Shown one piece after another: positions 18,396 to 55,673 of a stretch of 64,000 nt of DNA (its first letter is position 1; every line of letters begins with the position of its first letter). This stretch comes from Rhodanobacter sp. FDAARGOS 1247 (GTDB lineage: Bacteria; Pseudomonadota; Gammaproteobacteria; Xanthomonadales; Rhodanobacteraceae), in assembly GCF_016889805.1 (NCBI RefSeq), contig NZ_CP069535.1:3596001-3660000 (forward strand), given 5' to 3'. A program made the position numbers and the translations under genes. The notes beneath the pieces were generated by a model. It searched no databases and was not told where the DNA came from. It saw nothing but the letters and a program-made list of their open reading frames with translations.

Positions 18396-20894
18396 ATGAA
18401 CATGCGTCAACGCCCACTTTCGATCAGCCTGCGCAAACTGCTGTTCGGCGGCAGCACGCTGCTGTTGCTGTGCAGCCCGTCGCTGGCCTTCGGCGCCGAC
18501 GCGCCGCCGCAGGATGCCGCCGGCAGCAATGCGCCGGCGAGTGACCCGGTCAAGGACGTCACCCAGCTGGGCAAGATCACCGTCACCGCGCAAAGCCGCT
18601 CGCAGGAAATGCAGGAAGTGCCGATCCCGCTGCAGATCGTCACCGCGAAGCAGATCGACACGCTGGCGGCGACCGACCTCAGCCGGATGGACATCTTCGT
18701 GCCCGGCCTGGTGGTCGGCGCCGACCAGCCGACCCAGCCGAGCTACCAGATGCGCGGCATCGAGACCAGCAACTTCGGCATCGGCACCGAGTCGGCCGTG
18801 GGCGTCTACGTCGATGGCGTCTATGCGGCCCGCTCCGGCGGCGCGCTGCTGGCGTTCAACGACATCGCGCGGATCGAAGTGCTGAAGGGGCCGCAGGGCA
18901 CGCTGTTCGGCCGCAATGCCGCCGCCGGCGCGATCTCGATCGTCACCAACGAACCCAGCGACCACTTCGAGGGCAAGGCCCGCGTGCGCTTCGGCAACGA
19001 CGGCCGCAAGTACGCCGACGCCCTGGTCAACGTGCCGGTGAACCGCGACATGGCCGTGCGCATGAGCGTGCTGGACAACCGCAGCGACGGCTGGATCAAG
19101 GACGCCGCCACCGGCGAAAGCTACGGCAAGGACCACGACTGGGGCAGCCGCCTGGTGTGGCGCTGGAACGCCACGCCCGACACCCGCGTGCTGCTGGCGT
19201 GGGACCACGAACAACTCAAGCAGCCGCCGCAGCCGGCGATCGGGCTGATCGCGAAATCGGACTACGTGACGCGGGACCCTCCGTTCAACGACGAGGTCCC
19301 GCCGTTTCCGGCCGATTCGTCGAGCTACCTCGATCCGCGCCATGCGCCGCTGTACAACGACACGGTGAATGCGGGCGAGAAGCGCCACTTCGACGGCGCC
19401 ACGCTCACCGTCGACCACTCCTTCAGCTGGGGCAGCCTCACCTCGACCACCGCGTGGCGGCACTTCAACACCTACAACCGCGGCGACTACGACGGCACCA
19501 ACAACCGCGCCACCTATCTCGACACCGCCAACATCGAGAGCAACAACAGCTGGTACCAGGAATTCAAGTTCGCCGGCACCGCCGGCATCGCCGACTGGGT
19601 CGGCGGCGTCAGCTACTACGACGAACACGCGCGGCAGACCAGCCAGACCAACGTGTTCACCGACAGCGTCGATTCGCTGGCGATGAACGTGGGCGGCAAT
19701 CCGTTCACCGACACCTTCGCCTTCTACGATTCGGTGTTGCCGTTGCTGGGCTTCGGCCAGTACCACCTGCTGGGCAATCCCTGGCGCGAGCAGATCGATA
19801 ACGTTGGTCGCTTCAAGGCCTACGCCGCGTACGGCGACGTGATCTGGCATCTCACCGATCGGCTCAGCCTCACCACCGGTGCTCGCTTCACCCGGGACGA
19901 AAAGCAGTTCTCCTGGTTCAATCCGCTGCGTCAGGCGCCGGAACTGGACGCCACCATTGCCGAACTGCTGCCGCAATTGGCCGCACTCGGCATCGTCATT
20001 GACCCCAGTCCCTTCCAGCAGAACCTGATCTTCAACGCCGCCGGCGGCGCCCCGGTCAACGTGCTGGTGAAGGACAAGAACAGCTGGAACGACTTCAGCC
20101 CCCGCGTGGTGCTGGACTACAAGTTCACCCCCGACGTGATGGGCTACGCCTCGGTGACCAAGGGCTACAAGGCCGGCGGCTACAACAGCGTGCAGATCGG
20201 CTCGCGCTTCGACCCGGAGAAGGTGCTCAACTACGAGGCCGGCCTGAAGACCCTGTTCCCCGAGCAGCACCTGCTGCTGAACGGCTCGGTGTACTACTAC
20301 CGCTACGACAACAAGCAGTCGCTCACGCTCGATCCCAACAGCGCCGGCTCCGGCGTGCCGCGCTACCTGGTCAGCAGCACCGACCAGGAAGCCCACGGCC
20401 TGGAGTTCGAGGCGCAATGGCAACCGGTGGATGCGTTCAAGCTCAGCTTCACCGGTGCCTACATCGACGCCACCTACCGCCAAGCGGTGGCGCCGTCGGG
20501 CGCCGACCTGTCCGGCCAGCCCACCGGCGAGCCGCTGTTCTCGTTTGCCAGCTCGCTGTCGTACACCTGGCAGGGCGTGGCGGGCGGCGCGCTGGAGTTC
20601 GACCTGTCGCATGCCTACCGCGGCAAGTCGCGCTGCAACCGCGACTCGCAACTGCAGGGCACCTGCCAGATCAGCCCGAACTTCGACACCGGCGTCGCCC
20701 AGCAACGCACCGACGCGCGGCTGGACTGGCATGCGGCCGACGACCAGTGGGGCGTCGCGCTGTACGCCAACAACGTGTTCAACAAGCGCTACGTGACCGG
20801 GGTGAACAATATCTCCACCAGCGTGTTCGGCACGCCGTTCGCCAGCATCACCCCACCACGCGCGGTCGGCGTCGAATTGCGCGTGAAATTCTGA
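18396..20894 (+). CDS. TonB-dependent outer-membrane receptor (partner of the beta-helix/di-heme pair)
   Basis: An 832-aa outer-membrane active transporter. ATG 18396 has AAGGGGAG eight bases upstream. Signal peptide about residues 1-33, TonB-box-like KITVTAQ near residue 60, a plug domain with EVLKGPQGTLFGRNAAAGAI near residue 160, then a 22-strand barrel with a C-terminal aromatic strand ending VELRVKF. It belongs to the large FecA/BtuB-like group common in this order. It starts 65 bp after the di-heme lipoprotein and is probably in the same operon, so it likely imports the ligand handled by the two lipoproteins. Ligand unknown. The five-hairpin repeat begins at its stop codon. Confidence 0.93.
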   Translation: MNMRQRPLSISLRKLLFGGSTLLLLCSPSLAFGADAPPQDAAGSNAPASDPVKDVTQLGKITVTAQSRSQEMQEVPIPLQIVTAKQIDTLAATDLSRMDIFVPGLVVGADQPTQPSYQMRGIETSNFGIGTESAVGVYVDGVYAARSGGALLAFNDIARIEVLKGPQGTLFGRNAAAGAISIVTNEPSDHFEGKARVRFGNDGRKYADALVNVPVNRDMAVRMSVLDNRSDGWIKDAATGESYGKDHDWGSRLVWRWNATPDTRVLLAWDHEQLKQPPQPAIGLIAKSDYVTRDPPFNDEVPPFPADSSSYLDPRHAPLYNDTVNAGEKRHFDGATLTVDHSFSWGSLTSTTAWRHFNTYNRGDYDGTNNRATYLDTANIESNNSWYQEFKFAGTAGIADWVGGVSYYDEHARQTSQTNVFTDSVDSLAMNVGGNPFTDTFAFYDSVLPLLGFGQYHLLGNPWREQIDNVGRFKAYAAYGDVIWHLTDRLSLTTGARFTRDEKQFSWFNPLRQAPELDATIAELLPQLAALGIVIDPSPFQQNLIFNAAGGAPVNVLVKDKNSWNDFSPRVVLDYKFTPDVMGYASVTKGYKAGGYNSVQIGSRFDPEKVLNYEAGLKTLFPEQHLLLNGSVYYYRYDNKQSLTLDPNSAGSGVPRYLVSSTDQEAHGLEFEAQWQPVDAFKLSFTGAYIDATYRQAVAPSGADLSGQPTGEPLFSFASSLSYTWQGVAGGALEFDLSHAYRGKSRCNRDSQLQGTCQISPNFDTGVAQQRTDARLDWHAADDQWGVALYANNVFNKRYVTGVNNISTSVFGTPFASITPPRAVGVELRVKF

Positions 20895-21049
20895 GAGGTG
20901 GTGATTTTTCAAGCTCGAAGTCCGGCCAGGGATGGCCGGACGCGGATCGGTCACGCAAGTGACTGATTCGCGCGAGCACGTCCGGGCATGTCCCGGACGT
21001 GCGATAGAAGAAAGCGACAGGAAGTGGCTTTCTTCACAGACTCTGAGAA
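20892..21049 (+). repeat. five-hairpin interspersed repeat, copy 1
   Basis: This begins at the TGA of the TonB receptor gene and ends just before the ATG at 21054. It shows five consecutive stem-loops. Stem 2 (20921-20928 with 20933-20940) is a perfect 8 bp around GGGA. Stem 3 (20947-20954 with 20959-20966) closes on a GCAA tetraloop. Stem 4 (20977-20986 with 20992-21001) is a perfect 10 bp. Stem 5 (21007-21015 with 21027-21035) is a perfect 9 bp. Stem 1 is imperfect in this copy. Copies 2 and 3 at 33258 and 42649 share order, spacing and much of the sequence. Confidence 0.85.
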
Positions 21050-21053
21050 GCCC

Positions 21054-22463
21054 ATGACCGAAAGCCAGCCGCTGACCGCCGACCTGCAACGCCTGCGCGA
21101 GGCGCAGGCGCGCGAACCGATGCCGGGGTGGGCGCTGCGCGCGCAGCGCCTGCGCAAGCTGGAGACGATGCTGCGCGAGCAGCGCAAGGCTTTCGCCGCC
21201 GCGATCCACGCCGACTTCGGCCAGCGCCCGGTCGAGGAAACCGACCTGCTGGAGATCTTCCCCAGCCTGTCGGCGATCCGCCACGCGCTCGGCCATGGCC
21301 GGCGCTGGATGAAGCCGCGGCGGCGCCTGGCCGACTGGCTGTTCCTGCCCGCGCGCACCGAACTGCGCCCGCAGCCGCTGGGCGTGGTCGGCATCATCGT
21401 GCCGTGGAACTATCCGCTGTACCTGGCCGTCGGTCCGCTGGTCGACGCGCTGGTGGCCGGCAACCGCGCGATGCTGAAGATGAGCGAGTTCACCCCGCGT
21501 TTCTCGGCGCTGTTCGCCGAGCAGATGGCCCGCTATTTCGCCGCCGACGAAGTGCTGGTGGTGAACGGCGACGCGGCGGTGGCGCAGGCGTTTTCCGCGC
21601 TGCCGTTCGACCACCTGCTGTTCACCGGCTCCACCGCGGTGGGCCACCACGTGATGCGCGCGGCGGCCGCCAACCTCACCCCGGTGACGCTGGAGCTGGG
21701 CGGCAAGTCACCGGCGATCATCGGCCCCGGGGCGCGCTTCGACCACGCGGTGGAGCGCATCGTGTTCGGCAAGCTGGTCAATGCGGGGCAGACCTGCATC
21801 GCGCCCGACTACGTGCTGCTGCCGCGCGCCCGGATACCGGCGTTCATCGAGGCCGCCGGCAAGGTACTGGCGCAGATGTACCCCGCGCTGGGCCAGAACG
21901 GCCAGTACGCCAGCATCGTTTCCGACCGGCAGTACCAGCGCCTTACCGGCCTGCGCGATGACGCGCTGGCCGCCGGCGCGCAATTGCACCGGCTCGGCGA
22001 GGCCGGCGAGGACGCCGCCAGCCGGCTGCTGCCGCCGCAGCTGCTCACCGGCGTCAGCGACGACATGGCGGTGATGCGCGAGGAAATCTTCGGCCCGCTG
22101 CTGCCGCTGGTGCCGTACGACCACCTGGATGACGCGATCGCCCACGTCCGCGCGCGGCCGCATCCGCTGGCCCTGTACCTGTTCGAGCACGACCAGGCGC
22201 TGGTCGACCGCGTGCTGGCGCGCACCCACGCCGGCGGCGTCAGCGTCAACGACACGCTGTACCACATCGCCCAGCACAAGCTGCCGTTCGGCGGCGTCGG
22301 CGCCTCGGGCATGGGCGGCTATCACGGCGAAGCGGGCTTCCGCACGTTTTCGCACCTGAAGCCGGTGTTCCGGCAGGCCCGCCTGAACGGCACCGGCCTG
22401 CTCAACCCGCCGTACGGGGCGCGCTTCCGGCGCATGCTCGAGTTGTTGTTGAAGCGCGGTTGA
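21054..22463 (+). CDS. aldehyde dehydrogenase, coniferyl-aldehyde dehydrogenase-like
   Basis: A 469-aa NAD(P)+-dependent aldehyde dehydrogenase of the class-3/CalB type, which includes fatty and coniferyl aldehyde dehydrogenases. Key residues: PWNYPLYLAVGPL, the cofactor loop FTGSTAVGHHV, the general base Glu in LELGGKSP, the catalytic Cys in NAGQTCIAPDYVL, and REEIFGPLLPL. The ATG at 21054 follows GAGAAG and sits directly behind the last hairpin of the repeat. An upstream frame opening in the repeat is not needed. No obvious pathway neighbours; a role in aldehyde detoxification is plausible. Confidence 0.9.
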   Translation: MTESQPLTADLQRLREAQAREPMPGWALRAQRLRKLETMLREQRKAFAAAIHADFGQRPVEETDLLEIFPSLSAIRHALGHGRRWMKPRRRLADWLFLPARTELRPQPLGVVGIIVPWNYPLYLAVGPLVDALVAGNRAMLKMSEFTPRFSALFAEQMARYFAADEVLVVNGDAAVAQAFSALPFDHLLFTGSTAVGHHVMRAAAANLTPVTLELGGKSPAIIGPGARFDHAVERIVFGKLVNAGQTCIAPDYVLLPRARIPAFIEAAGKVLAQMYPALGQNGQYASIVSDRQYQRLTGLRDDALAAGAQLHRLGEAGEDAASRLLPPQLLTGVSDDMAVMREEIFGPLLPLVPYDHLDDAIAHVRARPHPLALYLFEHDQALVDRVLARTHAGGVSVNDTLYHIAQHKLPFGGVGASGMGGYHGEAGFRTFSHLKPVFRQARLNGTGLLNPPYGARFRRMLELLLKRG

Positions 22464-22556
22464 ACCGCGGGCCGCAGCCGGGCACGCCCGGCTTGCGCAC
22501 CTGCTACCCTCGATGCGATGCCGGGGCCGGCCCGGCACTTTCCGATGGGTTTCGCG

Positions 22557-22850
22557 ATGCCATGTTTCGTCTACGCCAGCCTGCGCAAGGCTGGCAGCTA
22601 CCTGTGGCTGGCCGAACGCGACGCGTTCGCCAGGCTGCCCGAGTCGCTGTTGCTGCTGCTGGGCGAGCTGCGTTTCGTGATGGAAGTGCAGCTGGACGAA
22701 CAGCGCAAGCTGCCGGTGGAAGACACCGCGCAGGTCCTCGCCCACCTGCGCGAGCAGGGCTGGCACCTGCAGGTGCCGCCCAACGAAACGCTGGCCGCGG
22801 CCAACCACCTGCCGTATACCCACTCCCCGCAGGATGACCGGGACGAGTGA
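22557..22850 (+). CDS. YcgL domain protein
   Basis: A 97-aa cytosolic protein of the YcgL family (DUF709). Recognised by the N-terminal PCFVYASLRKAGSYLWL and by the central LLLLLGELRFVMEVQLDEQRKL pattern. Family members are small alpha/beta proteins of unknown function in gammaproteobacteria. The start is ATG 22557, directly before the conserved domain; ATG 22545 is the alternative. A GC-rich hairpin follows 21 bp after the stop. Confidence 0.88.
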   Translation: MPCFVYASLRKAGSYLWLAERDAFARLPESLLLLLGELRFVMEVQLDEQRKLPVEDTAQVLAHLREQGWHLQVPPNETLAAANHLPYTHSPQDDRDE

Positions 22851-22871
22851 CGCGCCGACCTGCGCGCGGAT

Positions 22872-22897
22872 TCCGCCGGCCTGTTCGCGCCGGCGGA
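22872..22897 (+). terminator. GC-rich hairpin downstream of ycgL
   Basis: A perfect 9-bp stem (TCCGCCGGC and complement) with an 8-nt loop, 21 bp after the ycgL stop. No T-run follows. Behind it a 13-nt unit, GATTTCCATCGGC, is present twice in tandem (about 22910-22936). Confidence 0.5.
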
Positions 22898-22974
22898 TCT
22901 ACATCGGCGGATTTCCATCGGCCGATTTCCATCGGCATTAACACTTGGTTACCGTCTGCCCATCCAACGATTTC

Positions 22975-22980
22975 TATACT
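22975..22980 (+). promoter_or_regulatory. candidate -10 box directly before the ankyrin gene
   Basis: TATACT ends 6 bp before the ATG at 22987. If this is the real -10, transcription would begin at or next to the ATG, giving a leaderless mRNA. No ribosome site is visible before that ATG, which fits. No good -35 is present at 17 bp. Confidence 0.35.
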
Positions 22981-22986
22981 CCCTCC

Positions 22987-25900
22987 ATGACCCAGCCCAA
23001 ATCACGTCGCCGCCCTCCCTTTCTGCAAGCCCTGGCCTGGTTCGTTCCCGGTTTGCTGGCGGTCTTCGTGGCCGGCCTGGTCAACCACCCGCTGACCCTG
23101 ATTCCGCTGCTGGTCGCCAACGCGCTGACCCTGGCGGCGGTCTGCCATGCGATCGGCTTCGATCCGGAACCGAAGTTCATGCGCACCGTGCTGCGCCGTG
23201 GCGCCGCGCACCTGGTGATGTTCACCGGTTACACCGTGGCGGTGTTCGTGCTGGTGGCCTGGCCGATGATGCAGCTGACCCACGCGCCCAGCCTCAGCGG
23301 CGCCCTGCTGCTGGCTGCTGCCCTGGTGCTGGCGCTGGTCGCGCTGTGGCGGCTGTGGCCCGCGTTCGGGCTGGTGTTCCTGTGGGATGACGCCTATCCG
23401 AGCCAGCGTGACGGCTCGTGGATCTTCACCGCCACCCTGCGCAGCGTCGCATTCGGCCGCCACCTGTCGCGCGAGGAACACTTCTTCAGCCACTTCCTGC
23501 CGGTCGCGTTCTCGCTGCTGGTGCTGTCCTTCGGCGCGATCACGCTGACCGGCCTGTACGGCGTGGTGCCCTCCGAGCCGCGCATCGCGGCGCTGGCCCT
23601 GTACGGCATCGTGCTGCTGCCGGCCGGCTGCCTGGTGATCGCCAACCGCACGCTGCGGGCGCTGTTGTGCGAAAGCCGGCATGCGCGCCGGCGCTCCGAC
23701 CTGGCGCCGACCCCGGTGCATCGCCCGATCCTCACCGAGGTCGAGCGCACCGCCGGCACGCCGGAACAGGCCGCCGCGCTGCTCGCCGCCACCCGTGACG
23801 GCGACATCGAGCGCGCGCTGGCGCTGGTCGAGGTGGGCGCCGACCCGGGCACCGCGCCCGCGGCGGACGATCGCGACCAGCGGCCGGTGCTGATGCTGGC
23901 CGCCTTGCTGCCCGACACCCGCCTGCTGCGCGCGCTGATCGCCCGGGGCGCCGACGTCAATCGCGCCAGCGGCGGCATCACCCCGCTGCTGGCCGCCACC
24001 CGCGACAGCTGGCACGGCCGCGCCGAGGCGGTGCTGACCCTGCTGGCCAACGGCGCCAGCCCGCTGGTCACCGATGCCGAAGGCAACACCGCGCTGCACG
24101 GCGCGGTACTCAGCGCCGACGCCGGCGTGGCCGCGATGCTGCTGGATGCCGCCGCACCGATCAACGCGCTGAACCAGGCCGGCATCAGCCCGCTGGCCAC
24201 CGCCTGCCGCGCGGCGAATTGGCCGCTGGCGAAGTTCCTGCTGGAGCACGGCGCCAAGCCCGTCGTGCCCGACGGCGAGCCGGCCCTGGTCGCCGCCAGC
24301 GGCATCGCCGACGACGACGTCGAAGGCGTGAAGCTGCTGCTCAAGCACCGCGCCCCGGTGAATGCCTGCGATGCACGCCACCGGCACGCCCTGCTCGGCG
24401 CCGCCGCCGAAGGCCACGAACAGATCGCCCGCGCGCTTTGCGCCGCCGGTGCCGACGTGAACCTGGTCGACCACCGCGGCAGCAGCGCGCTGATGGAAGC
24501 GGCCCGCGCCGGCGCCGGCGGCATCGTGCAATTGCTGGCCGAGGCGAAGGCCGACGCGGGCCTGCGCGACAGCCACGGTCGCGACGCACTGACCCTCGCC
24601 TGCCAGTCGCCGCATGCCGACGCCGGCACGATCAGCGCCCTGCTTGCCCTGGGCGCCGACCCGAAGGCACCGGCCAGCGACGGTCGCAGCGCACTCGACC
24701 ATGCCGCCGCCGCGGGACGCTGGGACCTGGTCGCCGTGCTTGATCCGGATACGCCGCTGCCGACCAGCCTCAGCCAGGACGTGCTGGCCGAAGGCGCCGA
24801 CACCCCCGGACACCTGCTCGATGCCCTGCGCTTCGGCCACTGGGCGATCGTCTCGGGCTTCGTGGCCCGCGTACGCGAATGGCCGCAGGCCGAGCTGGCC
24901 CGCATGTATCTGGAACTGGCCTCGCCCGGCCTGGGCGCCGCCCGCCGCTGGCTGCTCGAACACGGCCTGGCCGCCGAAGCGCGGCTGGACGCACCGCAGA
25001 TCGACGACGCCGACACCGGCGACACGCCGCACCTGCCGCCACCGGGCCAGCGCCTGTTCGATGCGCTGCTGCAGCAGCTTCCCGATGCCACCGAAGCGCT
25101 CGACGACCTGCTGCAAGCCGGCGCCACGCCCGCCGGCGCCGGCCTGCTGGCGCAGGCGCTGCTGAACACGAACGGTGCGGCCCAGTCGGCCGCGCTGCCG
25201 TTGAAGATGCTCGAGGCAGGCGCCGATCCGTTCGGCCCCGACGCCCGGGCGCGCAGCCCGCTGCAACTGGCCGCGGTGAACGACCAGGTGGAACTGCTGC
25301 AGGCGCTGCTGCAGCGGGGCTGCGATCCCAACACACGCGACCGCGACGGCCGCACGCCGCTGTTCGCCGCGCTGGAGCACGGCGCCCAGGCGCTGCCGCT
25401 GGTGCGCGCACTGATCGCCCACGGCGCCGACCCGGAAGCCACCGACGCCAACGGCGAAACGCCGCTGGGCCTGGCGCTGGAACATCCCGCGGTGGAGCGC
25501 TGGCTGGACTGGCGCGACTGGTCGCGGCCGGATCGCGCGCTGCGCGCCAGCGACCTTCCCGCCGCCGCGCGCGCCGGCGCGCTGGCCAGCGTGCAGCGAC
25601 TGCTGGAACTGGGTTTTGCCGTGGACACCCTCGACGAACAGGGCGCCAGCGCCCTGCTGCACGCCTGCGGCGCCGGTCACCGCGAGATCGCCGCCTGCCT
25701 GCTGGACGCCAACGCCGACGCGACCCGCGCCGCCCGCAGCGGCGTGACCCCGCTGGCCGCCGCGGTCGCCGCGCGGCGCGAATCGCTGGTGGCCCTGCTG
25801 CTGCAGCGCGAAGTCGCCGTCGACCAGCGCCTGCCGAACGACGCCACCGCGCTGATGGCGGCGGCGGCGATGGGTTATCCGGAGATCGCCGAACAGCTGC

Positions 25901-26421: not shown

Positions 26422-26426
26422 GGCGC

Positions 26427-26448
26427 GGCCGCGCGCCCCGGCGCGGCC
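26427..26448. terminator. hairpin between convergent genes
   Basis: A perfect 8-bp stem, GGCCGCGC with its complement, and a 6-nt loop in the 44-bp gap between the ankyrin gene and the antiporter gene. No T-run on either side. Confidence 0.4.
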
Positions 26449-26465
26449 ATCGCCCGATCAGCGCC

Positions 26466-28301: not shown

Positions 28302-28396
28302 GCGCGTGCGGCTCCAGTCGGGGAGGTTCGATTATTCCACGTGAAGGCCGGCCGCACCCGCTGTCGGTGCGGTTTCATCTCGCAGTTTCCCAAAAC

Positions 28397-28425
28397 GATC
28401 AGGCCCGCTTGCGGCGGGCCTGATC
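28397..28425 (-). terminator. rho-independent terminator of the M3 peptidase gene
   Basis: A perfect 12-bp stem (GATCAGGCCCGC and complement) with a 5-nt loop, located 25 bp after the peptidase stop. It is followed on the minus strand by GTTTTGGG. Confidence 0.85.
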
Positions 28426-28449
28426 TTCCAACACGGATGCTGCAACGGC

Positions 28450-32688: not shown

Positions 32689-32717
32689 CTGGCATCCCCC
32701 GTGATGATGGCTCGGCG

Positions 32718-32723: not shown

Positions 32724-32749
32724 ACGGGCTTTGCCGCGGGACGCATCGC

Positions 32750-33241
32750 ATGTTCGACCTGAAAGCCCAGACCTATGCCAGCAAGCGCGAGCACTACGCC
32801 GATCTGGTGCAGCAGGCGCGCGGCATCCTGGCCGGCGAGCGCGACCTGATCGCCAACGCGGCCAATTTCGGCGCACTGGTCTATCACAGCCTGGCGCAGG
32901 TGAACTGGGCCGGCTTCTACCTGTACGACGGCCATGAACTCGTGGTGGGCCCGTTCCAGGGCAAGCCCGCCTGCATCCGCATCGCGCTGGGCCGGGGCGT
33001 CTGCGGCACCGCCGCGCAGACCCGCGAAACCCAGCTGGTGCGCGACGTCAACGCGTTCGCCGGGCACATCGCCTGCGACGCCGCCTCGCAATCGGAGATC
33101 GTGGTGCCGCTGGTCAGGGCCGACGGTTCGCTGCTCGGCGTGTGGGATGTCGACAGCCCGGTCACCGACCGCTTCGACGAGGACGACCGCGCCGGCATGG
33201 AAGCGCTGTGCGCGGTGTTCATGGACGCCGTGCAGGGCTGA
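32750..33241 (+). CDS. msrC: free methionine-(R)-sulfoxide reductase (GAF-domain fRMsr)
   Basis: Reduces free Met-R-sulfoxide in the cytosol using thioredoxin. A single GAF domain of 163 aa. The three redox cysteines are in place: Cys75 (GKPACIRIALGRG), Cys85 (GVCGTAA) and Cys109 (HIACDAASQSEIVVPL). Their 10 and 24 residue spacing matches that of the E. coli enzyme (84/94/118). The substrate-pocket motifs NWAGFYLYDG and GVWDVDSP are also present. It is divergent from the TMEM175-like gene. Repeat copy 2 lies directly downstream. Confidence 0.93.
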   Translation: MFDLKAQTYASKREHYADLVQQARGILAGERDLIANAANFGALVYHSLAQVNWAGFYLYDGHELVVGPFQGKPACIRIALGRGVCGTAAQTRETQLVRDVNAFAGHIACDAASQSEIVVPLVRADGSLLGVWDVDSPVTDRFDEDDRAGMEALCAVFMDAVQG

Positions 33242-33257
33242 AACCGAAGCTCAGCCG

Positions 33258-33462
33258 TGAGAGGTTGTGATTTTTCAACCTCGAAGCCCGGCCATGGCGA
33301 GGGCATGGATGCCCGAATTGAGGCAACGCAGAAGCAGTTGCCCGATGGCCGGGCGTGGCTCGGTCACGCAAGCGACTGATTCACGTGAGCACGTCCGGGC
33401 ATGTACCGGACGTGCGATAGAAGAAAGCGACAGGAAGTGGCTTCCTTCACAGGCTCTGAGAA
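33258..33462 (+). repeat. five-hairpin interspersed repeat, copy 2 (long form)
   Basis: Same orientation and hairpin order as copy 1. Stem 1 (GAGGTTG/CAACCTC) is perfect. Stem 2 (33287-33294 with 33346-33353) is a perfect 8 bp, with a T-A pair of copy 1 replaced by C-G. Its loop is 51 nt instead of 4 and holds two small hairpins of its own (33301-33314 and 33322-33342). Stems 3 to 5 are nearly identical to copy 1, with a few mismatches. It fills the gap between the convergent fRMsr and engB genes and ends at the engB stop. Confidence 0.85.
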
Positions 33463-33463
33463 C

Positions 33464-34123: not shown

Positions 34124-34132
34124 GGGGATGGT

Positions 34133-34162
34133 TTGACCAAGCTGGGGTGGCGCAGGGATAAT
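34133..34162 (+). promoter_or_regulatory. sigma70 promoter of the cytochrome c4 gene
   Basis: -35 TTGACC (34133-34138) and -10 GATAAT (34157-34162) are separated by 18 bp, 78 bp upstream of the cytochrome c4 ATG. Confidence 0.7.
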
Positions 34163-34239
34163 TCTTCGGTTTCTGCCTGTTGCGGACCGCATGGCCGCAA
34201 TCGCTGGCAGTGTTTGCAAGTCTCTCGGGAGTCAAGTGT

Positions 34240-35007: not shown

Positions 35008-35014
35008 TCGAACC

Positions 35015-35048
35015 CGCGCCGACCTTCAAACGTCGGCGCGCTGGTTTT
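35015..35048 (+). terminator. rho-independent terminator after cytochrome c4
   Basis: A 9-bp perfect stem, CGCGCCGAC with its complement, and an 8-nt loop are followed by CTGGTTTTCG. Confidence 0.75.
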
Positions 35049-35072
35049 CGCGCCCCACTTTCGAGGTCTGCC

Positions 35073-35951: not shown

Positions 35952-36007
35952 GCGCTTCGGTTAAGCTGGTCAGCCGGCATCCCCACCGCATTCGAGCGAA
36001 GAAACCC

Positions 36008-36658
36008 ATGTTCCAGCGATTCGCCTGTTCCCGCGTCCTGATCCTGCTTGCCGGCCTGCTGCTGGCCACCGCCTGCACCGCGAAATCCGGTGCGGTGGAC
36101 CCGTACACCGACGGCGCCGAGTACGTCACCCTGCCCGCCCCGCACCAGCGCTACAGCAGCGAGGGCAAGGTGGAAGTGGTCGAGGTGTTCTCGTATGGCT
36201 GCATCCATTGCGCCCACTTCGCGCCGGTGGCCGATGCACTGGCCAAACAGTTCCCCAAGGGCGTGGAGTTCAAGCTGCTGCCGGCGCCGTTCAGTGCCGA
36301 ATGGGTGCCGTTTGCCCGGGCGTTCTACGCGGCCAAGCAGCTGGGCGTGCTGGATCGCACGCACCTGGCCCTGTTCCAGGCGAAGTTCGAACAGCACTAT
36401 CCGATCAACTCGATGAACGAACTGGCCGACTTCTACGCCCGCGCGGGTGTCGATCGCGCCGCGTTCATGCAGGCGGCCACGTCGACCCAGACCACCGACC
36501 AGATGAAGAGCGACCTCGCCCTGATCCAGAAGTGGCAGGTCGATGGCACGCCGACCATCGTGATCAACGGCAAGTACCGCGTCGCCGCGGTGCACTCCTA
36601 TGACGAGATGGTCGCCGTCACGCAGTGGCTGGTGAAGCGCGAGCTGGCCGGCAAGTAA
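36008..36658 (+). CDS. DsbA-family thiol:disulfide oxidoreductase
   Basis: A 216-aa protein with an N-terminal signal or anchor (RVLILLAGLLLATACT); the lipobox is marginal, so lipidation at Cys23 is uncertain. The DsbA domain has active site YGCIHCAHF (Cys65, Cys68) and cis-Pro loop DGTPTIVINGKYRV. It is 56 bp downstream of the lipoprotein paralogue and clearly a tandem duplicate: both contain FSYGC, RAFY and NGKYR. CIHC and CPAC differ in the residues that set redox potential, which suggests divided roles. Confidence 0.92.
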   Translation: MFQRFACSRVLILLAGLLLATACTAKSGAVDPYTDGAEYVTLPAPHQRYSSEGKVEVVEVFSYGCIHCAHFAPVADALAKQFPKGVEFKLLPAPFSAEWVPFARAFYAAKQLGVLDRTHLALFQAKFEQHYPINSMNELADFYARAGVDRAAFMQAATSTQTTDQMKSDLALIQKWQVDGTPTIVINGKYRVAAVHSYDEMVAVTQWLVKRELAGK

Positions 36659-36771
36659 TCGCCGGGTTCCCCGGCGGCTGGCGTGGCATTCACACCGGAT
36701 GGATCATGCTAGCCGTCATCTCGGCGCATGAACCCATGCGCCGGCTTCCCCTTTTCGCGTAGTGGCCCGCC

Positions 36772-37581
36772 ATGACTCGCGCCTCCGTTTCCACCGCCCC
36801 TGCCGAGCGCCACCTGCGCCTGCTGAGCTGCAACATCCTGGCCGGCGCCAGCGTGCAGCGCTATCGCCAGTACGTGACGCGCAGCCTCAGTGCGGTGCTG
36901 CCCGGGCGCAGCAAGATGGACAACCTCGACCGGCTCGCCGAAGTGCTGGCGCAGTTCGACGTGGTCGGCCTGCAGGAAGCCGATGCGGGCAGCCTGCGTT
37001 CGGGTTTCCTCAACCAGACCCGCTACCTCGCCGAAACCTCCGGTCTGCCGTTCTGGAGCCATCAGCCCAACCGGGCGATGGCGCGGCTGGCGCATTCGGC
37101 GAACGGGCTGATCAGCCGGCTCGAACCGCATTCGGTGACGGACTACCCGCTGCCCAGCCGCATCCCGGGCCGCGGCGCCCTGCTGGCCCAGTTCGGTGAA
37201 GGCGACAACGCGCTGGCGGTGATGATCGCCCACCTGTCGCTGAGCGCGCAGGCGCGCGCGCGCCAGCTGGGCTTCATCGCCGAGCTGCTGCAGGATTTCC
37301 CCCATGCGGTGCTGATGGGCGATCTCAACGCCGAGCCCGGCAGCGCCGAGATGAAGCATCTTTTCGCCAGGTCCACCTTGCAGCCGCCAGCCCAGCCCAC
37401 GCCCACCTTCCCCAGCTGGAAGCCGCGGCGGGCGCTGGATCACATCCTCACCTCGCCGGCGATCACGCTGGAGAAAACCTGGGCCTTGCCGCAGGCGTTC
37501 TCCGATCACCTGCCGCTGGCGGCGGAGATCCGCCTGCCGGCGCACGTCGGCGGCAAGGCCTCGGCGAAGCGCAGCCGATGA
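36772..37581 (+). CDS. endonuclease/exonuclease/phosphatase family protein
   Basis: A 269-aa metal-dependent EEP-fold hydrolase. Motifs: LLSCNILAG near residue 17, VVGLQEADAG (Glu metal ligand), IAHLSLS, LMGDLNAEPGS (Asp and Asn), RALDHILTS and the terminal SDHLPLAAEI (Asp-His). No signal peptide is seen, so it is probably cytosolic. The family includes exonuclease III, sphingomyelinases and phosphodiesterases; the substrate cannot be read from sequence. The stop overlaps the start of the next small gene (ATGA). Confidence 0.85.
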   Translation: MTRASVSTAPAERHLRLLSCNILAGASVQRYRQYVTRSLSAVLPGRSKMDNLDRLAEVLAQFDVVGLQEADAGSLRSGFLNQTRYLAETSGLPFWSHQPNRAMARLAHSANGLISRLEPHSVTDYPLPSRIPGRGALLAQFGEGDNALAVMIAHLSLSAQARARQLGFIAELLQDFPHAVLMGDLNAEPGSAEMKHLFARSTLQPPAQPTPTFPSWKPRRALDHILTSPAITLEKTWALPQAFSDHLPLAAEIRLPAHVGGKASAKRSR

Positions 37582-37994
37582 CGTCGAACCGATGGCGACT
37601 GGCCTGGCCATGGCTGGCCCTGCTGCTGGTGGCGCTGCTCGGCGCGTGGTTGCGCTATGGCGTGGTCGAGCCCGGCTCGATGGCGCAGCAATGCGGCGCC
37701 GGCCACGCACCGTGGTGGTGCCCGTGGCGGCAACGGCTGGTGCTGGGTTTCCTGCACAACGTGTATGGCATCGCGGCGCTGATCGCGACCGCGCTGGCGT
37801 TGGTGTGGAAGCGTCCGTGGCTGGCCTGGCTGGCCGCCGCCCTGGGCATCGTGGCGCTGCAGCTGTACTGCTTCGAGAGCGGCGCGCTGGCTGCGCTGAT
37901 CGGCTGCCTACGCCTGATCAGGCTGCAGGCGGACGGCCTGCCGCCACGCCGACCACACCGGCACGACCAGCAGCAGGTTCACACCCAGCCATAG
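37578..37994 (+). CDS. small membrane protein, 138 aa
   Basis: Three hydrophobic segments (WLALLLVALLGAWLRYGVV, NVYGIAALIATALALVW and WLAWLAAALGIVALQLYCF) with a CGAGHAPWWCPW loop carrying two Cys. The C-terminus is a His/Arg/Gln-rich tail. It overlaps the upstream EEP gene by 4 bases, so translation is coupled. The last 87 bp overlap the 3' end of the convergent GH17 gene. I recognise no named family. Confidence 0.65.
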   Translation: MTSNRWRLAWPWLALLLVALLGAWLRYGVVEPGSMAQQCGAGHAPWWCPWRQRLVLGFLHNVYGIAALIATALALVWKRPWLAWLAAALGIVALQLYCFESGALAALIGCLRLIRLQADGLPPRRPHRHDQQQVHTQP

Positions 37995-39503
37995 CCAAGC
38001 CACATACGTGAGGCCGGATTCCTGCAGCAGCACCAGCGCCGCCGGCAAGGGCAGCACGCAGGCCAGGAAGCGCTCCTCCAGCAACGGCATCAGCGGCGCG
38101 CGACGATCGGACAGCCAGCCGGACAGCGCGTAGCCGGCGCAGGGCAACAGGAACAGGCCCAGCGGAAAATCCCGGTAGCGCCCGTCGACCACCAGCAACA
38201 GGCCATAGAAGGCCAGCGCGAACAGCCAGCCCAGTCGCCACCACGGCCGCGGCAGCGGCGGCGTCATCCCGCACAGGCGCGCGGCGATCCAGCGCGCCAG
38301 GCGCAGCGCGGTAAGCAGCGCCAGCACGCAGGCGCCCAGCGACACCGTCCATTCCCACGCGTCGCGACAGGCGTACCACATCTGCCGGAACTGCCAGGCC
38401 AGCGCGCCGCCGCTGGCCGCGCCGGCCAGCGTCAGGGCCAGCCAGCCACGCGCTCCGCGCCAGCGACGACGCCACGCACCGACCAGCAGGAACACGCCGG
38501 CGCCGGCCACGCCGGCCAGCCAGCCCGCCCACCAGTGCGGCTCTTCCACCACCGGCCCCTGCATCGCGAACTTCGGCCGCGCCTGCGCATCGAAGATGCC
38601 CCAGTAGCCGCCCACGGTGCCTTCCTGGGCACGTTTCCACGGCTGGTCGAACGCTTCGATCACGTTGTACGGCATGTGCACGGTGGCCGCGTAGCGCAGG
38701 AATTCGCGCAGGTAGCGGGCCTCGTTGACCACGCTGGCGCTGGCCGCCTGGCGCGGGCGGCCAGCGCTGGGCCAGCCGGTCTCGCCGATCATCACGGCGC
38801 GGCCGGGAAACGCCTGCTGCACCTTCGCATAGACGTCGGCCACATGCTGCACCGCCCGCTCGGGTGACACCGGCTGGTCTTCCCAGTACGGCAGGATGTG
38901 GATGGTCAGGTAGTCCACCGAGCCGGCCAGCTCGGGATGGCGCAACCAGAACTCCCACACGTCGGCGTAGGTCACCGGCACCGTGACCGCCTCGCGCACC
39001 TGTTTCAGATAGACGGCCAACTGGCTGGCCGGCAGATCGCCACGCAACAGCACCTCGTTGCCCACGATCACCCCGCGCAGCACCTGCGGATACTTGTTTG
39101 CAGTGGCGATGCCCAGCCGCACCTGCTCGGCGTTCGCCTTCGCGTCGCCGCCCAGCCAGATGCCCATCAGCACCTTCATGCCATGGCGTTCGGCGATCGC
39201 CGGCACCGCGCTCAGCCCCTGCCCTTGCGAATACGTGCGCACGCAATCGAAGCGCTGCGACAACGCGGCAAGATCGGCATCGATGCGCTCGGCGCTGATG
39301 TGCGCCGTCGGGTCCAGTGGCGTCTCGCCGGCACGACGAAACGGCGCATACGACACGCAGGCGATGCGCGCCGACGGCGCATCCGGCAAGGCCACCGGTC
39401 GACCGATCGCCCACCACCACCACGCGGCGGCCAGTGCCATCACCACCAGCGCGAGCCACGCCGGCCAGACGCGACGGAAAACAGGCGAAGCAGCTGGCGA
39501 CAT
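37908..39503 (-). CDS. membrane protein with GH17 (beta-1,3-glucanase-like) catalytic domain
   Basis: A 531-aa protein. An N-terminal helix (AWLALVVMALAAAWWWWAIG) anchors a periplasmic GH17 barrel of about 280 residues with the acid/base Glu in GVIVGNEVLLRG and the nucleophile Glu in VMIGETGWPSAGRP. The C-terminal half holds six or more membrane helices. This architecture occurs in bacterial membrane GH17 proteins thought to trim or transglycosylate beta-glucans, such as cyclic or osmoregulated glucans. Start at ATG 39503 (MSPAASPVF); a longer frame to 39593 would overlap the upstream gap. Substrate inferred. Confidence 0.88.
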   Translation of the reverse strand: MSPAASPVFRRVWPAWLALVVMALAAAWWWWAIGRPVALPDAPSARIACVSYAPFRRAGETPLDPTAHISAERIDADLAALSQRFDCVRTYSQGQGLSAVPAIAERHGMKVLMGIWLGGDAKANAEQVRLGIATANKYPQVLRGVIVGNEVLLRGDLPASQLAVYLKQVREAVTVPVTYADVWEFWLRHPELAGSVDYLTIHILPYWEDQPVSPERAVQHVADVYAKVQQAFPGRAVMIGETGWPSAGRPRQAASASVVNEARYLREFLRYAATVHMPYNVIEAFDQPWKRAQEGTVGGYWGIFDAQARPKFAMQGPVVEEPHWWAGWLAGVAGAGVFLLVGAWRRRWRGARGWLALTLAGAASGGALAWQFRQMWYACRDAWEWTVSLGACVLALLTALRLARWIAARLCGMTPPLPRPWWRLGWLFALAFYGLLLVVDGRYRDFPLGLFLLPCAGYALSGWLSDRRAPLMPLLEERFLACVLPLPAALVLLQESGLTYVAWLWLGVNLLLVVPVWSAWRQAVRLQPDQA

Positions 39504-39629
39504 GCCGATCCCGGTAAAGGCGTGGATGAAGCGCGACAGCTTAACAGGGCCCACCGCGCACTCACCGAATGCCGACAAGTTGAAACGGGCCATCCACTAC
39601 ACTGGCCGCGATCCACCGCAGGAGTTGTC

Positions 39630-41675
39630 ATGTTTTCATTCGCTTCGTCGCGGCGCGTGCCGCTGGCCTGGCTGGCGCTGGCCGGCGCCTGGCTGCTCAC
39701 CGGCTCGACCGCACTGGCCGCCACGCCCGACGCCGCGCAACGCGTCGCCTTCAAGCAGGCGTACGCCGTCGCCCAGCAGGGCGGCGACGGCTGGCGCCAG
39801 TTTGCCGGCAACCTGCACGACTACCCCTTGTATCCGTACCTGGCTGCGGCGGCGCTGCAGCACGACATCCAGCAGGTCGACCGCGCCAGCGTGGAAGCCT
39901 ATCTCGCGCAGTATCCGGACTGGATACCCGCGGCCGACCTGCGCCGCGCGTTCCTGCTGGAGCTGGCGCGCCGGCAGGACTGGAGCGGCTTTCTTGCGCT
40001 GTACCAGCCCGGCCTCGGCGACACGCTCAGCTGCGACGCGCTGCAGGCGAAACTCGCCGGCGGCGGCAAGCTGGATTTCCAGCGCGACCTGGCCGAACTG
40101 TGGACCCGCGCCAACCTGCCCGGTGCCTGCGATCCGGTGCTCGACGCCGCGCACGACCAGGGCCTGCTCACCGACGCACGGCTGTGGACACGGATCGATC
40201 GCGCGGCCGACGCCGGCCAGGCCGGCACCATCGCCAGCCTGGCCAGCTGGCTGCCTGCCAGCGAACAGCCCGCCGCGCAGCAACTGGCCACCGCGCTGCG
40301 TGATCCGGCTGCCGCGGTCGCTGACGCGAAGAACTGGCCCGACGGCACGCGCCAGCGCCACGCCGTCACGCTGGCGCTGACCCGGCTGGCCCGACGCCAG
40401 AGCGACAGCGCCGACGCCGCGTGGCAGCAGCTGCAATCGCGCTTCACGCTGAGCGAGGCCCAGCGCAACCGCATCCTGCAGACCCTGGCGCTGTTCCGCG
40501 CCACCGACTTCGACGACGATGCCCTGGCCCGGCTGATCGCGCTGCCCGCCGCCGCGCAGACCGACAGCACCCGCGAATGGCGCGTGCGCGTGGCGCTGGC
40601 CCGGCAGGACTGGAGCGCGGCGCTGGCGGGCATCGAGGCGATGCCTGCCAGCCAGCAGCAGGATGGCGAATGGCAATACTTCCGCGGCCGCGCGCTGGCC
40701 GCGCTGGGCCGCGCCGACGAAGCCCGGCGGCAGTTCGCCGAGCAGGCCGACCAGCCGACCTTCTTCGGCTTCATGTCGGCGGACCGGCTCGACCAGCCGT
40801 ACGCGATCTGCCCGCTGACCCTGGCCGACGACCCGCAGCGCGAACAGCAGCTGCTGGCGATGCCGGGGCTGGTGCGCGCGTTCGAGCTGTACGCGGTGGA
40901 CCTGCCGAAACTGGCCCGGCGCGAATGGACACGCGCCCTGCAGGGCAGCGACGTGGCCACGCAGAGGATCGCCGCCGACATGGCCAACCGCCGCGGCTGG
41001 TACGACCGCGCCGTATTCACCCTGAGCAGCGGCGATGCCCTGCGCCTGTATGACCTGCGCTTCCCGCTGGCCAGCCAGGACGGCCTGGTGCCGCAGGCCG
41101 AGCAGGCCGGCATCGAACCGGCCTGGGCCTACGGCATCCTGCGCGCGGAAAGCGCGTGGATGAGCGACGCGCATTCCGGCGCCGATGCGCGCGGCCTGAT
41201 GCAGTTACTGCCGGAGACCGCCGCGCTGGTGGCCAGGCGCAACGGACTGGACTGGGCCGGCGGCGACAGCCTGTACGACCCGGCCACCAACATCGCGCTG
41301 GGCACCCGTTACCTGGCGCAGATGGCGGCGCGCTTCAACGGCTCGCCATGGCTGGCCAGCGCCGCCTACAACGCCGGCCCGAACAAGGTCGACCAGTGGC
41401 TGGCCGCCCGCGGCACCCTGCCCACCGATCTGTTCGTGGCCAGCATTCCCTACAAGGAAACCCGCGAGTACGTGGCCCGAGTGATGGCCTTCAGCGTGAT
41501 CTACGACTGGCGTCTGGACGGCCATACGGTGGTGCCGCTGGCCACCCGCATGGAGGCGATCGGCCAGCCCTACAGCCTGCCCGGCAATGGCACGCCACGC
41601 CGCGAAGTAAGCTGCCCGGCGCCGACCACCGCGCCGACGACGGCCCCGGCCAGCGCCGCCAGCGTTTCTCGCTGA
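39630..41675 (+). CDS. slt: soluble lytic murein transglycosylase (Slt70-like)
   Basis: A 681-aa periplasmic enzyme that cleaves peptidoglycan with formation of 1,6-anhydro-muramic ends. ATG 39630 has AGGAG six bases upstream. Signal peptide about residues 1-30. Residues 30-480 form the alpha-superhelical U and L domains. The catalytic SLT domain follows: catalytic Glu in YGILRAESAWMSDAHSGADA, then ARGLMQLLPETA, ALGTRYLAQM and ASAAYNAGPNKV. A Pro/Thr/Ala tail ends the protein. It is divergent from the GH17 membrane protein. Confidence 0.95.
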   Translation: MFSFASSRRVPLAWLALAGAWLLTGSTALAATPDAAQRVAFKQAYAVAQQGGDGWRQFAGNLHDYPLYPYLAAAALQHDIQQVDRASVEAYLAQYPDWIPAADLRRAFLLELARRQDWSGFLALYQPGLGDTLSCDALQAKLAGGGKLDFQRDLAELWTRANLPGACDPVLDAAHDQGLLTDARLWTRIDRAADAGQAGTIASLASWLPASEQPAAQQLATALRDPAAAVADAKNWPDGTRQRHAVTLALTRLARRQSDSADAAWQQLQSRFTLSEAQRNRILQTLALFRATDFDDDALARLIALPAAAQTDSTREWRVRVALARQDWSAALAGIEAMPASQQQDGEWQYFRGRALAALGRADEARRQFAEQADQPTFFGFMSADRLDQPYAICPLTLADDPQREQQLLAMPGLVRAFELYAVDLPKLARREWTRALQGSDVATQRIAADMANRRGWYDRAVFTLSSGDALRLYDLRFPLASQDGLVPQAEQAGIEPAWAYGILRAESAWMSDAHSGADARGLMQLLPETAALVARRNGLDWAGGDSLYDPATNIALGTRYLAQMAARFNGSPWLASAAYNAGPNKVDQWLAARGTLPTDLFVASIPYKETREYVARVMAFSVIYDWRLDGHTVVPLATRMEAIGQPYSLPGNGTPRREVSCPAPTTAPTTAPASAASVSR

Positions 41676-41712
41676 GCGATCTCCGCACCTGTTTCAGCAA
41701 GGAACGCCGCCC

Positions 41713-42651
41713 ATGGCCGCACAGCAACTCGTCATCCTCGGTGGCACCGGCTTCCTCGGCCAGCAGCTGGTCCCGCGACTGGCCGCCGACGGCCATCGCA
41801 TCGTGCTGCTCAGTCGCGATCGCGAGCGGCATCGCGCACTCGCCGTGCTGCCGGGCGTGAGCGTGCGCAACGCCGACATCTACGATGACGCCGTGCTGCG
41901 TCGCCAACTGGCAGGCGCCGATGCGGCCATCAACCTGGTCGGCATTCTCAACCAGGGTGGTCGACACAGCTTTCAGCGCACCCACGTCGAACTGACCCGG
42001 CGGCTGATCGCCGCCTGCCACGACAGCGGCGTCGGACGCCTGCACCAGATGAGTTCGCTGAAAGCCGGCCAGGGCCTGTCGCAATACCTGAAGACGCGCG
42101 GCGAAGCCGAAGCCTTGGTCAGGGCTTCGGCGCTGGACTGGACGATCTACCAGCCCAGCGTGATCTTCGGCCGCGGCGACGGCCTGGTCAGCCGCTTCGC
42201 CGCGCTGCTGCGGAACATGCCGGCGCTGCCGCTGGCGCGCGCGCAGTCGCGCCTGGCGCCGACCTGGGTCGGTGACGTGGCGGAGGCGATCGCCAGCTGC
42301 GTGAACCACGAGCGCCTGGGCCGGCAGCGCAGCTTCGAGTTGTACGGCCCCGACGTGCTCAGCCTGGGCGAGATCGTGCGCCGCATCCGCGATGCCGCGG
42401 GCCTGCGCACGCCGATCGTCGCCCTGCCCGACAGCCTCGGCCAGTTGCAGGCGCAGTTCGCCGAGCTGTTGCCGGGCAAGCCGTTTTCACTGGACAACTT
42501 CCGTTCGCTGCGCACCGATTCGGTGGGCAAGGTGGATGGCTACGCCGCCCTCGGCATCACGCCCCAGCCGCTGGCGCCGTGGCTGCCGGTGCTGCTGGGC
42601 GAACCGGCGCGGCAACGCCGGCTGGCCGCGGCGCGGTCGCTGCGGCGCTGA
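41713..42651 (+). CDS. NAD(P)-binding epimerase-like protein, complex I NDUFA9 type
   Basis: A 312-aa atypical short-chain dehydrogenase. The Rossmann dinucleotide motif ILGGTGFLGQQLV starts at residue 8, with IVLLSRDRERH as the cofactor-selecting strand end. The HQMSSLKAG and YLKTRGEAEALVR segments take the place of the SDR active site, with YxxxK weakened to YLKTR. That is typical of the NDUFA9/YwnB-type group annotated as complex I NDUFA9 subunit family. Preceded by AAGGA. It lies 37 bp after slt. The TGA is also the first bases of repeat copy 3. Confidence 0.85.
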   Translation: MAAQQLVILGGTGFLGQQLVPRLAADGHRIVLLSRDRERHRALAVLPGVSVRNADIYDDAVLRRQLAGADAAINLVGILNQGGRHSFQRTHVELTRRLIAACHDSGVGRLHQMSSLKAGQGLSQYLKTRGEAEALVRASALDWTIYQPSVIFGRGDGLVSRFAALLRNMPALPLARAQSRLAPTWVGDVAEAIASCVNHERLGRQRSFELYGPDVLSLGEIVRRIRDAAGLRTPIVALPDSLGQLQAQFAELLPGKPFSLDNFRSLRTDSVGKVDGYAALGITPQPLAPWLPVLLGEPARQRRLAAARSLRR

Positions 42652-42799
42652 GAGGTTTTCAACCTCTCAGGTCGGCCAGGCATGGTCGACCGCGAATCGG
42701 TCGCCCAAGTGGCTGACTCGCGTTAGCCCGTTCAAGCATGCATCGGACGCGCGATGGAAGAAAACCGCAGGAAGTGGTTTTTCTTCACGGACTCCGGGA
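42649..42799 (+). repeat. five-hairpin interspersed repeat, copy 3 (diverged)
   Basis: The most diverged copy keeps all five stems. Stem 1 is a perfect GAGAGGTT/AACCTCTC around TTC. Stem 2 is GTCGGCCA with TGGTCGAC, 8 bp including one G-T pair. Stem 3 is TCGGTCGC with GTGGCTGA, with wobbles. Stem 4 is reduced to 7 of 8 pairs. Stem 5 is GAAGAAAACC with GGTTTTTCTTC, where a G-C of copy 1 has become A-T. It occupies the gap between the NDUFA9-like gene and the convergent sulfotransferase-like gene. Confidence 0.75.
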
Positions 42800-55636: not shown

Positions 55637-55673
55637 GGTTCGGGCGTCGCTGCGATGGGCGATCCGGTAGCGT

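Follow-up and report, generated by a model that had tools for sequence, protein, structure and literature searches.

A five-hairpin repeat at gene stop codons of Rhodanobacter: marks of an IS5-type mobile element and a candidate RsmA/CsrA-binding RNA cargo

The closest described counterparts of the element treated here are RNAs that bind the post-transcriptional regulator RsmA/CsrA. RsmW of Pseudomonas (RF02809, clan CL00106) is reported to stem from the 3' untranslated region (UTR) of PA4570 and to bind RsmA with a Kd (dissociation constant) of 11.5 nM (PMC4950607), and RsmU of Xanthomonas campestris, which likewise binds RsmA, is reported to arise by processing of a 3' UTR, with its start 25 bp past the XC1332 stop (PMC7694677). 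According to the latter report, none of the known sponge families has a significant homologue in Xanthomonas, and both sources describe binding of CsrA/RsmA to GGA in hairpin loops. Extragenic hairpin repeats of another kind are the repetitive extragenic palindromes (REPs), which PMC3733652 defines as palindromes of 20-40 bp that have GTAG or CGTC as one of their ends. The element in question is a repeat of about 157 nt with five hairpins in Rhodanobacter sp. FDAARGOS 1247, found in 64,000 nt of contig NZ_CP069535.1 (positions 3,596,001 to 3,660,000; this whole stretch of analysed DNA is the window). An initial annotation of the window had described three copies with the same orientation and the same order of hairpins, and all three are indeed present where it placed them.

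This repeat is very probably a mobile element of the IS5 type which sits at gene stops. It probably also carries an RsmW-like RNA cargo, which would bind RsmA/CsrA and act as its decoy or recruiter. The sequence itself shows mobility marks, stop placement, covariation, loop conservation, a layout common with RsmW and the presence of csrA in the genome. In the consensus, a CTGA is followed by hairpin 1, which is the left terminal repeat, hairpin 2 (loop ANGGAN), hairpin 3 (mostly a GNNA tetraloop), hairpin 4 (a loop of 7 nt), hairpin 5 (loop AGGAN), the right terminal repeat and a second CTGA. A typical element contains two GGA motifs in hairpin loops, a feature of CsrA/RsmA-sequestering RNAs, and the genome that harbours the window encodes CsrA (92 bits).

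Marks of mobility and placement at stop codons

Copies from this genome and its relatives fall into the types g1, f3, f4 and f12, which are sequence groups defined by the best-matching consensus, each mixing genomes; 22/65 g1, 10/35 f3 and 44/47 f12 copies come from one genome scan, and the group totals are those among the matches listed. The g1 type is bounded by imperfect terminal inverted repeats (CTGAGAGGTTGTGA / CTCAGAGCCTGTGA) with CTGA at both ends in 42/59 copies, and G is the preferred base after the CTGA target (87% of insertions). Identical 4-bp ends, mostly YTAR, were found in 13/21 f4 and 28/43 f12 copies; copies less than 300 nt from the end of a locus and those with repeated flanks were excluded from these counts, which takes g1 from 65 to 59 and f12 from 47 to 43.

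Empty sites were seen at one locus, the end of a gene matched in 45/45 genomes of the genus and presumably Ogt/Ada-like to judge from its PCHRV motif. Among the 30 loci shown, the element is present in two (the own genome and G033), 27 are empty and one is cut off. The identical GGC TGA end is retained in 10/27 of the empty loci. Therefore, the element does not bring the stop codon with it, and a stop supplied by the element is ruled out.

The assignment to the IS5 type comes from genome G038, because the ends of an insertion sequence (IS) there are near-identical to those of the element and are accompanied by the same kind of duplication. Inward-facing pairs of GGAGGGTCTGAACAAG about 1.2 kb apart occur at at least nine places in G038, and the three IS copies inspected have perfect GGAGGGTCTGAACAAG ends with CTAA, CTAG or TTAG duplications. 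Their reading frame of 345 codons, intact in two of the three copies and broken in L310, encodes an IS5-family transposase (NF033581, 325 bits against a cut-off of 140). The five-hairpin elements of the same genome carry GGAGCCTCTGAACAAG at the left end and GGAGGGTCTGAAYAAG at the right, the latter mostly with T. A relative of the G038 transposase is present in 15/45 Rhodanobacter genomes, and five of the 15 transposase loci tested (L315, L316, L329, L333 and L335) show clean ends flanked by a YTAR-type duplication of 4 bp. The initial annotation had offered a mobile structured RNA as one possibility, and this is supported by the 4-bp duplications, the IS5-like terminal repeats, the empty sites at one locus and the covariation described below.

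Placement was examined in 24 copies of the own genome (3.92 Mb), in which a DNA search gave 27 matches, equivalent to some 24 separate copies, which lie on both strands; the set leaves out three matches that are pieces or the reverse of others (L024, L025 and L027) as well as copy 3 of the window, which was not among the 27. The upstream gene lies on the strand of the element in 24/24, and in 20/24 its in-frame stop is the TGA within the 5' CTGA, compared with 19/20 in G033 and 7/7 in G002/G003. When the g1 type is pooled, a set that overlaps these counts, an in-frame TGA stop is found at the 5' end in 52/59 copies, with the element in sense orientation. The background, taken from 1.26 Mb of this genome, is itself high: 475/1608 (30%) of the non-coding CTGA sites lie at predicted stops, a share that rises to 172/362 (47%) with a following G and to 63% in the strictest version, in which only CTGAG behind a same-strand gene is counted. 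Much of the stop placement can be put down to the target sequence and to selection against disrupted genes. The excess over the strictest background has p = 1.5e-5 for pooled g1, a set from several genomes measured against the background of one, and p = 0.027 for the 24 own copies. Since few genes were called in the f4 and f12 loci, stop placement in these types rests on open-frame length. Within the window, each copy had been said to begin at a TGA stop or just behind one; the TGA at the start is a stop in copies 1 and 3, where it is in-frame, and is none in copy 2, where the upstream gene already ends before the element (Table 1).

These marks suggest a miniature transposable element of IS5 type with imperfect terminal repeats, the left one of which would be folded as hairpin 1. 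Its movement, also in Rhodanobacter, would depend on an IS5-family transposase supplied in trans, which would duplicate 4 bp of target sequence (in the Rhodanobacter type CTGA, mostly with a G behind it, and YTAR elsewhere). Surviving copies would be found at gene ends because the targets contain stop codons and because insertions inside genes are presumably purged by selection. In the Rhodanobacter type, the TGA of the gene itself would become the 5' target copy with the element in sense, and the element would therefore be transcribed as a 3' UTR. Independently of any binding by RsmA/CsrA, a transposon that takes a gene's own stop codon as its target is a clear example of an insertion niche with little cost.

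The hairpin core and its GGA loops

Folding of 16 own-genome copies with RNAalifold gave five hairpins with 49 pairs, 11 of them changed on both sides. In an alignment of 50 copies from the four sequence groups, 93.0% of the cells pair, the covariation score is 0.471 against 0.181+-0.007 in shuffles (0/500 as high) and 0.04-0.11 in slid structures, 343 cells are changed on both sides against 117+-8 in shuffles, and 25/41 pairs are changed on both sides against 6-10 in slid structures. The alignment was made by sequence (MAFFT) and was not structure-fitted; hairpin 5 of the f4 type is off by about one column and its count is therefore lowered. Hairpins 2-5 covary across the four sequence groups by compensatory change, and as much of this covariation lies between groups, it represents few independent events. 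Of the outcomes that the initial annotation had named as counting against it, a lack of covariation is contradicted by the strong covariation seen here, and no known repeat family is matched in the window at the Rfam gathering threshold. Its statement that base changes are compensated is upheld over the 50 copies and needs correction for single ones: hairpin 1 of copy 1 is mismatched and copy 3 has a decayed hairpin 4, with a folding energy of -5.2 kcal/mol as against -21.8 and -20.2 in the other window copies.

Frequent G-T pairs had been taken as a sign of selection on RNA. Over 168 copies, GU cells outnumber AC cells by 371:115, which agrees with that view; the excess resides mainly in hairpin 3, where GU exceeds AC at 9/12 pair depths, and the small excess in hairpins 4 and 5 weakens it as a general proof of RNA selection. 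For these counts and the following loop counts, copies had to cover 90% or more of the consensus and to score 70 bits or more, identical projected copies being counted once and copies that bear insertions (such as window copy 2) or are shortened being left out.

GGA is found in the loop of hairpin 2 in 51/65 g1, 34/35 f3, 19/21 f4 and 45/47 f12 copies and in that of hairpin 5 in 61/65, 32/35, 21/21 and 46/47, respectively, and both loops persist while the stems differ between groups. Hairpin 2 reads ACANGGAUGU in 6/47 f12-type copies, which is presumably close to the CsrA consensus. A class-wide search with a second covariance model (R2, see below) provided loops for 27/29 new loci, L345 and L346 being incomplete and excluded. 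Here the hairpin 4 loop and partly the hairpin 3 loop have changed and GGA was mostly retained, with GGA in 21/27 hairpin 2 loops, 21/27 hairpin 5 loops and 4/77 other loops, counts that are partly circular, the search model itself containing GGA loops. Hairpin 5 has the hexaloop ANGGAN in 11/21 class-level GGA copies, a form absent from the rows of the model alignment, and this speaks against pure circularity of the loop counts.

In the proposed model, the cargo would be a four-hairpin RNA (hairpins 2-5) maintained by compensatory change, whose first and last hairpins would expose GGA loops (ANGGA or AGGA) in the shape bound by RsmA/CsrA. Such an RNA may bind RsmA/CsrA as RsmW does, so acting as a dispersed decoy or recruiting RsmA to the host mRNA. 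In this form the riboregulator that had been proposed for the window is a live hypothesis, based on the GGA loops and the likeness to RsmW. Should RsmA/CsrA bind this RNA, transposition would offer a means of adjusting a regulator that acts globally after transcription, as every insertion would add binding sites and may tag a host mRNA without breaking a gene. RsmA decoys in Lysobacterales may then have a source in this family, which would also suggest an origin of Csr/Rsm sponge RNAs such as RsmW.

Comparison with known systems and rival explanations

RsmW resembles the element in its length of about 120 nt, the same order of hairpins, GGA on the first and last of them and a position behind a stop codon; it differs in that it is present in a single copy per genome and in that no terminal repeats were seen around it. 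It gave one match per genome in 47/398 Pseudomonadaceae genomes, 41 of them above the cut-off. Among 25 RsmW loci, 21 lie no more than 50 nt from the stop that closes the upstream open frame and four at 109-128 nt, the three loci that were folded form hairpins with GGA loops first and last, and the last hairpin reads CCAGGGATGG in 8/25, as does hairpin 2 in 9/65 g1-type copies. RF02809 aligns over its full length to the element at L363 with 41.9 bits (E=0.0014 in 63 kb), and the GGA hairpins of the two coincide. Run against the 369 genomes of the class, it gave one weak partial match, and as the 14 control genomes gave none, this search carries little information; RsmY, used as a control, was not matched by model R2. 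A bolder and rather unlikely extension would be that an IS5-mobilised family spreads RsmA/CsrA-binding RNAs at Gammaproteobacterial stops, at tens to more than 100 sites per genome, with RsmW as a domesticated immobile descendant.

RsmU can be likened to the element by description and not by sequence, as a 3'-UTR RNA that binds RsmA. According to its report (PMC7694677), RsmU still bound RsmA when all four GGA motifs were altered, and caution is therefore needed in equating GGA with binding. The Rfam consensus of TD-2 RNA (RF03162) has hairpins with AuGGAu, guaA and AcGgAU loops in order; with 24.7 bits against a cut-off of 48.7 and E=0.079 on 211 nt, the match is a lead only. The likeness to miniature inverted-repeat transposable elements (MITEs) of the IS5 family lies in the terminal inverted repeats, the 4-bp YTAR-type duplication and the IS5 partner in G038, whereas the covarying RNA core, the loops fixed across groups and the 52/59 g1 copies at in-frame stops set the element apart. 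REPs, the bacterial interspersed mosaic elements (BIMEs) built from them and the associated RAYTs also concern extragenic hairpin repeats; a REP/BIME was rejected on size, ends and target, given an element of about 157 nt with five hairpins and YTAR/CTGA duplications. ERIC (enterobacterial repetitive intergenic consensus) sequences were set aside on size and target and not on sequence, and integron attC sites and clustered regularly interspaced short palindromic repeats (CRISPR) were dropped on their general features.

The same data could come from a plain IS5-type MITE without regulatory cargo, in which the hairpins persist by descent and through replication errors that correct palindromes, the loops because of shared ancestry and the stop placement by target sequence and selection against gene disruption. 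This is unlikely, even though every mobility mark fits it, copies such as window copy 3 decay, the CTGAG target alone predicts 47-63% at stops and the f3 and f12 types have no orientation bias there. Such an element would also sit well with the slight GU/AC asymmetry in hairpins 4 and 5 (14:10 and 41:25 cells) and with the 50/500 shuffles that equalled the 25/41 pairs changed on both sides. It does not account for the GGA loops of hairpins 2 and 5 being kept in four groups with differing stems, nor for GGA mostly staying in class-level copies in which the loops of hairpin 4 and partly hairpin 3 changed; the number of cells changed on both sides, far above that in shuffles, and the GU excess at most depths of hairpin 3 likewise speak against it. 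That the element instead serves as a 3'-end RNA stabiliser, insulator or terminator for the upstream mRNA, copies at stop codons being retained for this purpose, is highly unlikely. Five strong consensus hairpins and an upstream gene that is always on the same strand in the own-genome set, with the element mostly beginning at its stop, would suit that role, but no terminator-like site is predicted at hairpin 5 of the three window copies, copy 1 lies between co-directional genes with the second starting just behind it, and the conserved GGA loops and the insertion of other types in both orientations would be left unexplained. The sole terminator-like site found spans the start of hairpin 1 in copy 2. 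The stabiliser put forward in the initial annotation thus gains no direct backing. Finally, the GGA loops might be there for something other than RsmA/CsrA, such as the transposase, ribosomes or a different RNA-binding protein, with the likeness to RsmW reflecting convergence of four-hairpin RNAs. The single-copy state of RsmW and the lack of terminal repeats seen around it fit this idea, as do an RsmW match under the curated cut-off and the few return matches; it is nevertheless quite unlikely in view of the binding of CsrA/RsmA to GGA in hairpin loops cited above and of the hairpin 2 variants of the f12 type.

The reading as an IS5-type mobile element with an RsmW-like cargo has itself to be set against a number of observations that weigh against it. 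On the side of mobility, the f3 type has identical 4-bp ends in just 8/35 copies, and a matching autonomous IS5-family IS was found in G038 alone. The readable ends of Rhodanobacter IS are GGAAGGTCTGAACAAG-like or GGATGCTCTGAT and differ from the GAGGTTGTGA of the element; CAGGCTGTTGAAAAA and GAGGTTGTGA would be expected of a matching partner, and no IS that bears the Rhodanobacter-type end turned up in Rhodanobacter. The own genome has 37 matches to the terminal inverted repeat (at most one mismatch) with no inward pair 0.5-4 kb apart, and its IS5 transposase match covers just 55 residues. Stops lie equally often at the 3' end in the f3 type (n=35, target usually the palindrome CTAG; 5' end 10, 3' end 11, both 1) and in the f12 type (3' end 7, 5' end 7), and sense transcription from the stop-bearing gene is therefore not general. 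As to the RNA, window copy 3 and 14/65 g1-type copies have lost GGA from hairpin 2, 455/500 shuffles equalled the number of pair types, and with the both-side-changed pairs mentioned above, two of five shuffle measures show no excess over chance. The RsmW score of L363 is under the Rfam gathering threshold of 52 bits and by that measure places it outside the family, no second match was found in 20 element loci apart from one of 15 bits to RsmV, and model R2 recovers RsmW in place and on the right strand at 2/25 loci (L394 and L401, E ~1e-6), with a partial overlap at L380 and a match on the opposite strand at L391.

Window copies, spread of the family and side observations

The 119-nt core of copies 2 and 3 shares 92% and 68% identity, respectively, with that of copy 1, and a first covariance model (R1) scores the three copies at 172, 152 and 126 bits. 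Copy 2 carries an insertion of about 46 nt at the tip of hairpin 2, which itself contains a GGGC-AUGGAU-GCCC hairpin. Positions are given in Table 1.

Table 1. Positions of the three element copies, their parts and adjoining genes in the window
Feature	Position	Strand	Remarks
Copy 1, whole element	20891-21049	+	
Copy 1, 5' CTGA target duplication	20891..20894	+	TGA is the in-frame stop of a TonB-dependent receptor gene (predicted 18396-20894)
Copy 1, hairpin 1	20893..20916	+	left terminal repeat folded on itself
Copy 1, hairpin 2	20921..20940	+	loop AGGGAU
Copy 1, hairpin 3	20942..20971	+	GCAA tetraloop
Copy 1, hairpin 4	20976..21002	+	
Copy 1, hairpin 5	21007..21035	+	loop AGGAA
Copy 1, 3' CTGA target duplication	21043..21046	+	
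Aldehyde dehydrogenase gene downstream of copy 1	predicted start 21054	+	8 nt past the 3' target copy
GAF-domain gene upstream of copy 2	32750-33241	+	stop 16 nt before copy 2
Copy 2, whole element	33257..33462	+	5' GTGA; 3' CTGA at 33456-33459
Copy 2, hairpin 2 with apical insertion	33287..33353	+	
Copy 2, insertion, GGGC-AUGGAU-GCCC hairpin	33301-33314	+	
Copy 2, insertion, GGCAAC...GTTGCC hairpin	33322-33342	+	
Copy 2, hairpin 3	33355..33384	+	GCAA loop
Copy 2, hairpin 4	33389..33415	+	
Copy 2, hairpin 5	33420..33448	+	loop AGGAA
Copy 3, whole element	42648-42799	+	
Copy 3, 5' CTGA	42648..42651	+	TGA is the in-frame stop of an NAD-binding/epimerase gene (41713-42651)
Copy 3, hairpin 1	42650..42668	+	
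Copy 3, hairpin 2	42670..42691	+	loop AGGCAU
Copy 3, hairpin 3	42692..42721	+	CCAA loop
Copy 3, hairpin 4	42726..42752	+	decayed
Copy 3, hairpin 5	42757..42786	+	loop AGGAA; 3' target duplication behind it no longer recognisable

An Rfam search of the window gave no family at the gathering threshold, in line with the initial annotation, which had recognised no named element. The covariance-model search of relatives that it had suggested revealed a family: model R1 gives 30 matches in the own genome and matches in 30/60 genomes (own and relatives), and model R2, for which at most eight candidates were scored per genome, matches 30/369 genomes of the class (own included) and 25/274 genera at E <= 1e-5. 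Most class-level copies keep the five-hairpin layout. The g1 element has no blastn match in plasmids or phages, and three class-level elements have none in plasmids. In a literature search, from which subscription papers and ISfinder fell outside the scope, no title or abstract opening describing the element was found.

Copy number and composition vary among the genomes. G038 has 142 model R1 matches, and in loci such as L067 and L072 (G038:C1:3397586-3398278) the hairpin 2-5 unit of about 130 nt forms tandem arrays; this unit appears able to multiply without hairpin 1. Genome G027 has 14 IS5-family transposase matches, yet no five-hairpin element (model R1, E <= 1e-3). An apical insertion in hairpin 4 of L048 (g1 type) contains several hairpins, one of them GCAUGCC-AGGAU-GGCAUGC, and the insertions in L048 and window copy 2 add further GGA-loop hairpins. 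The element at L369 (G186:C1:541208-541419) likewise has an extra GGA-loop hairpin, and a cspA thermoregulator match lies near it (125 bits, cut-off 78). Near an element of G038, a match to YrlA, a Y RNA-like RNA, was found (L060, 1965-2100) at 50.4 bits, under the cut-off of 69. Other hairpin-like repeats, of the GGAGCGC... and GTCATTCCGGC... types, stand behind the Ogt/Ada-like gene in Rhodanobacter relatives (L283, L286, L288, L292, L293 and L296).

Two further repeats lie in the window. A long inverted repeat at 55669-55785 has arms of 43 nt with 88% complementarity and a gap of 31 nt, and an inverted similarity of 131 nt (73%) links 43156-43286 with 45750-45880, between opposite-strand neighbour genes, one of which is a tetratricopeptide repeat (TPR)-sulfotransferase gene.

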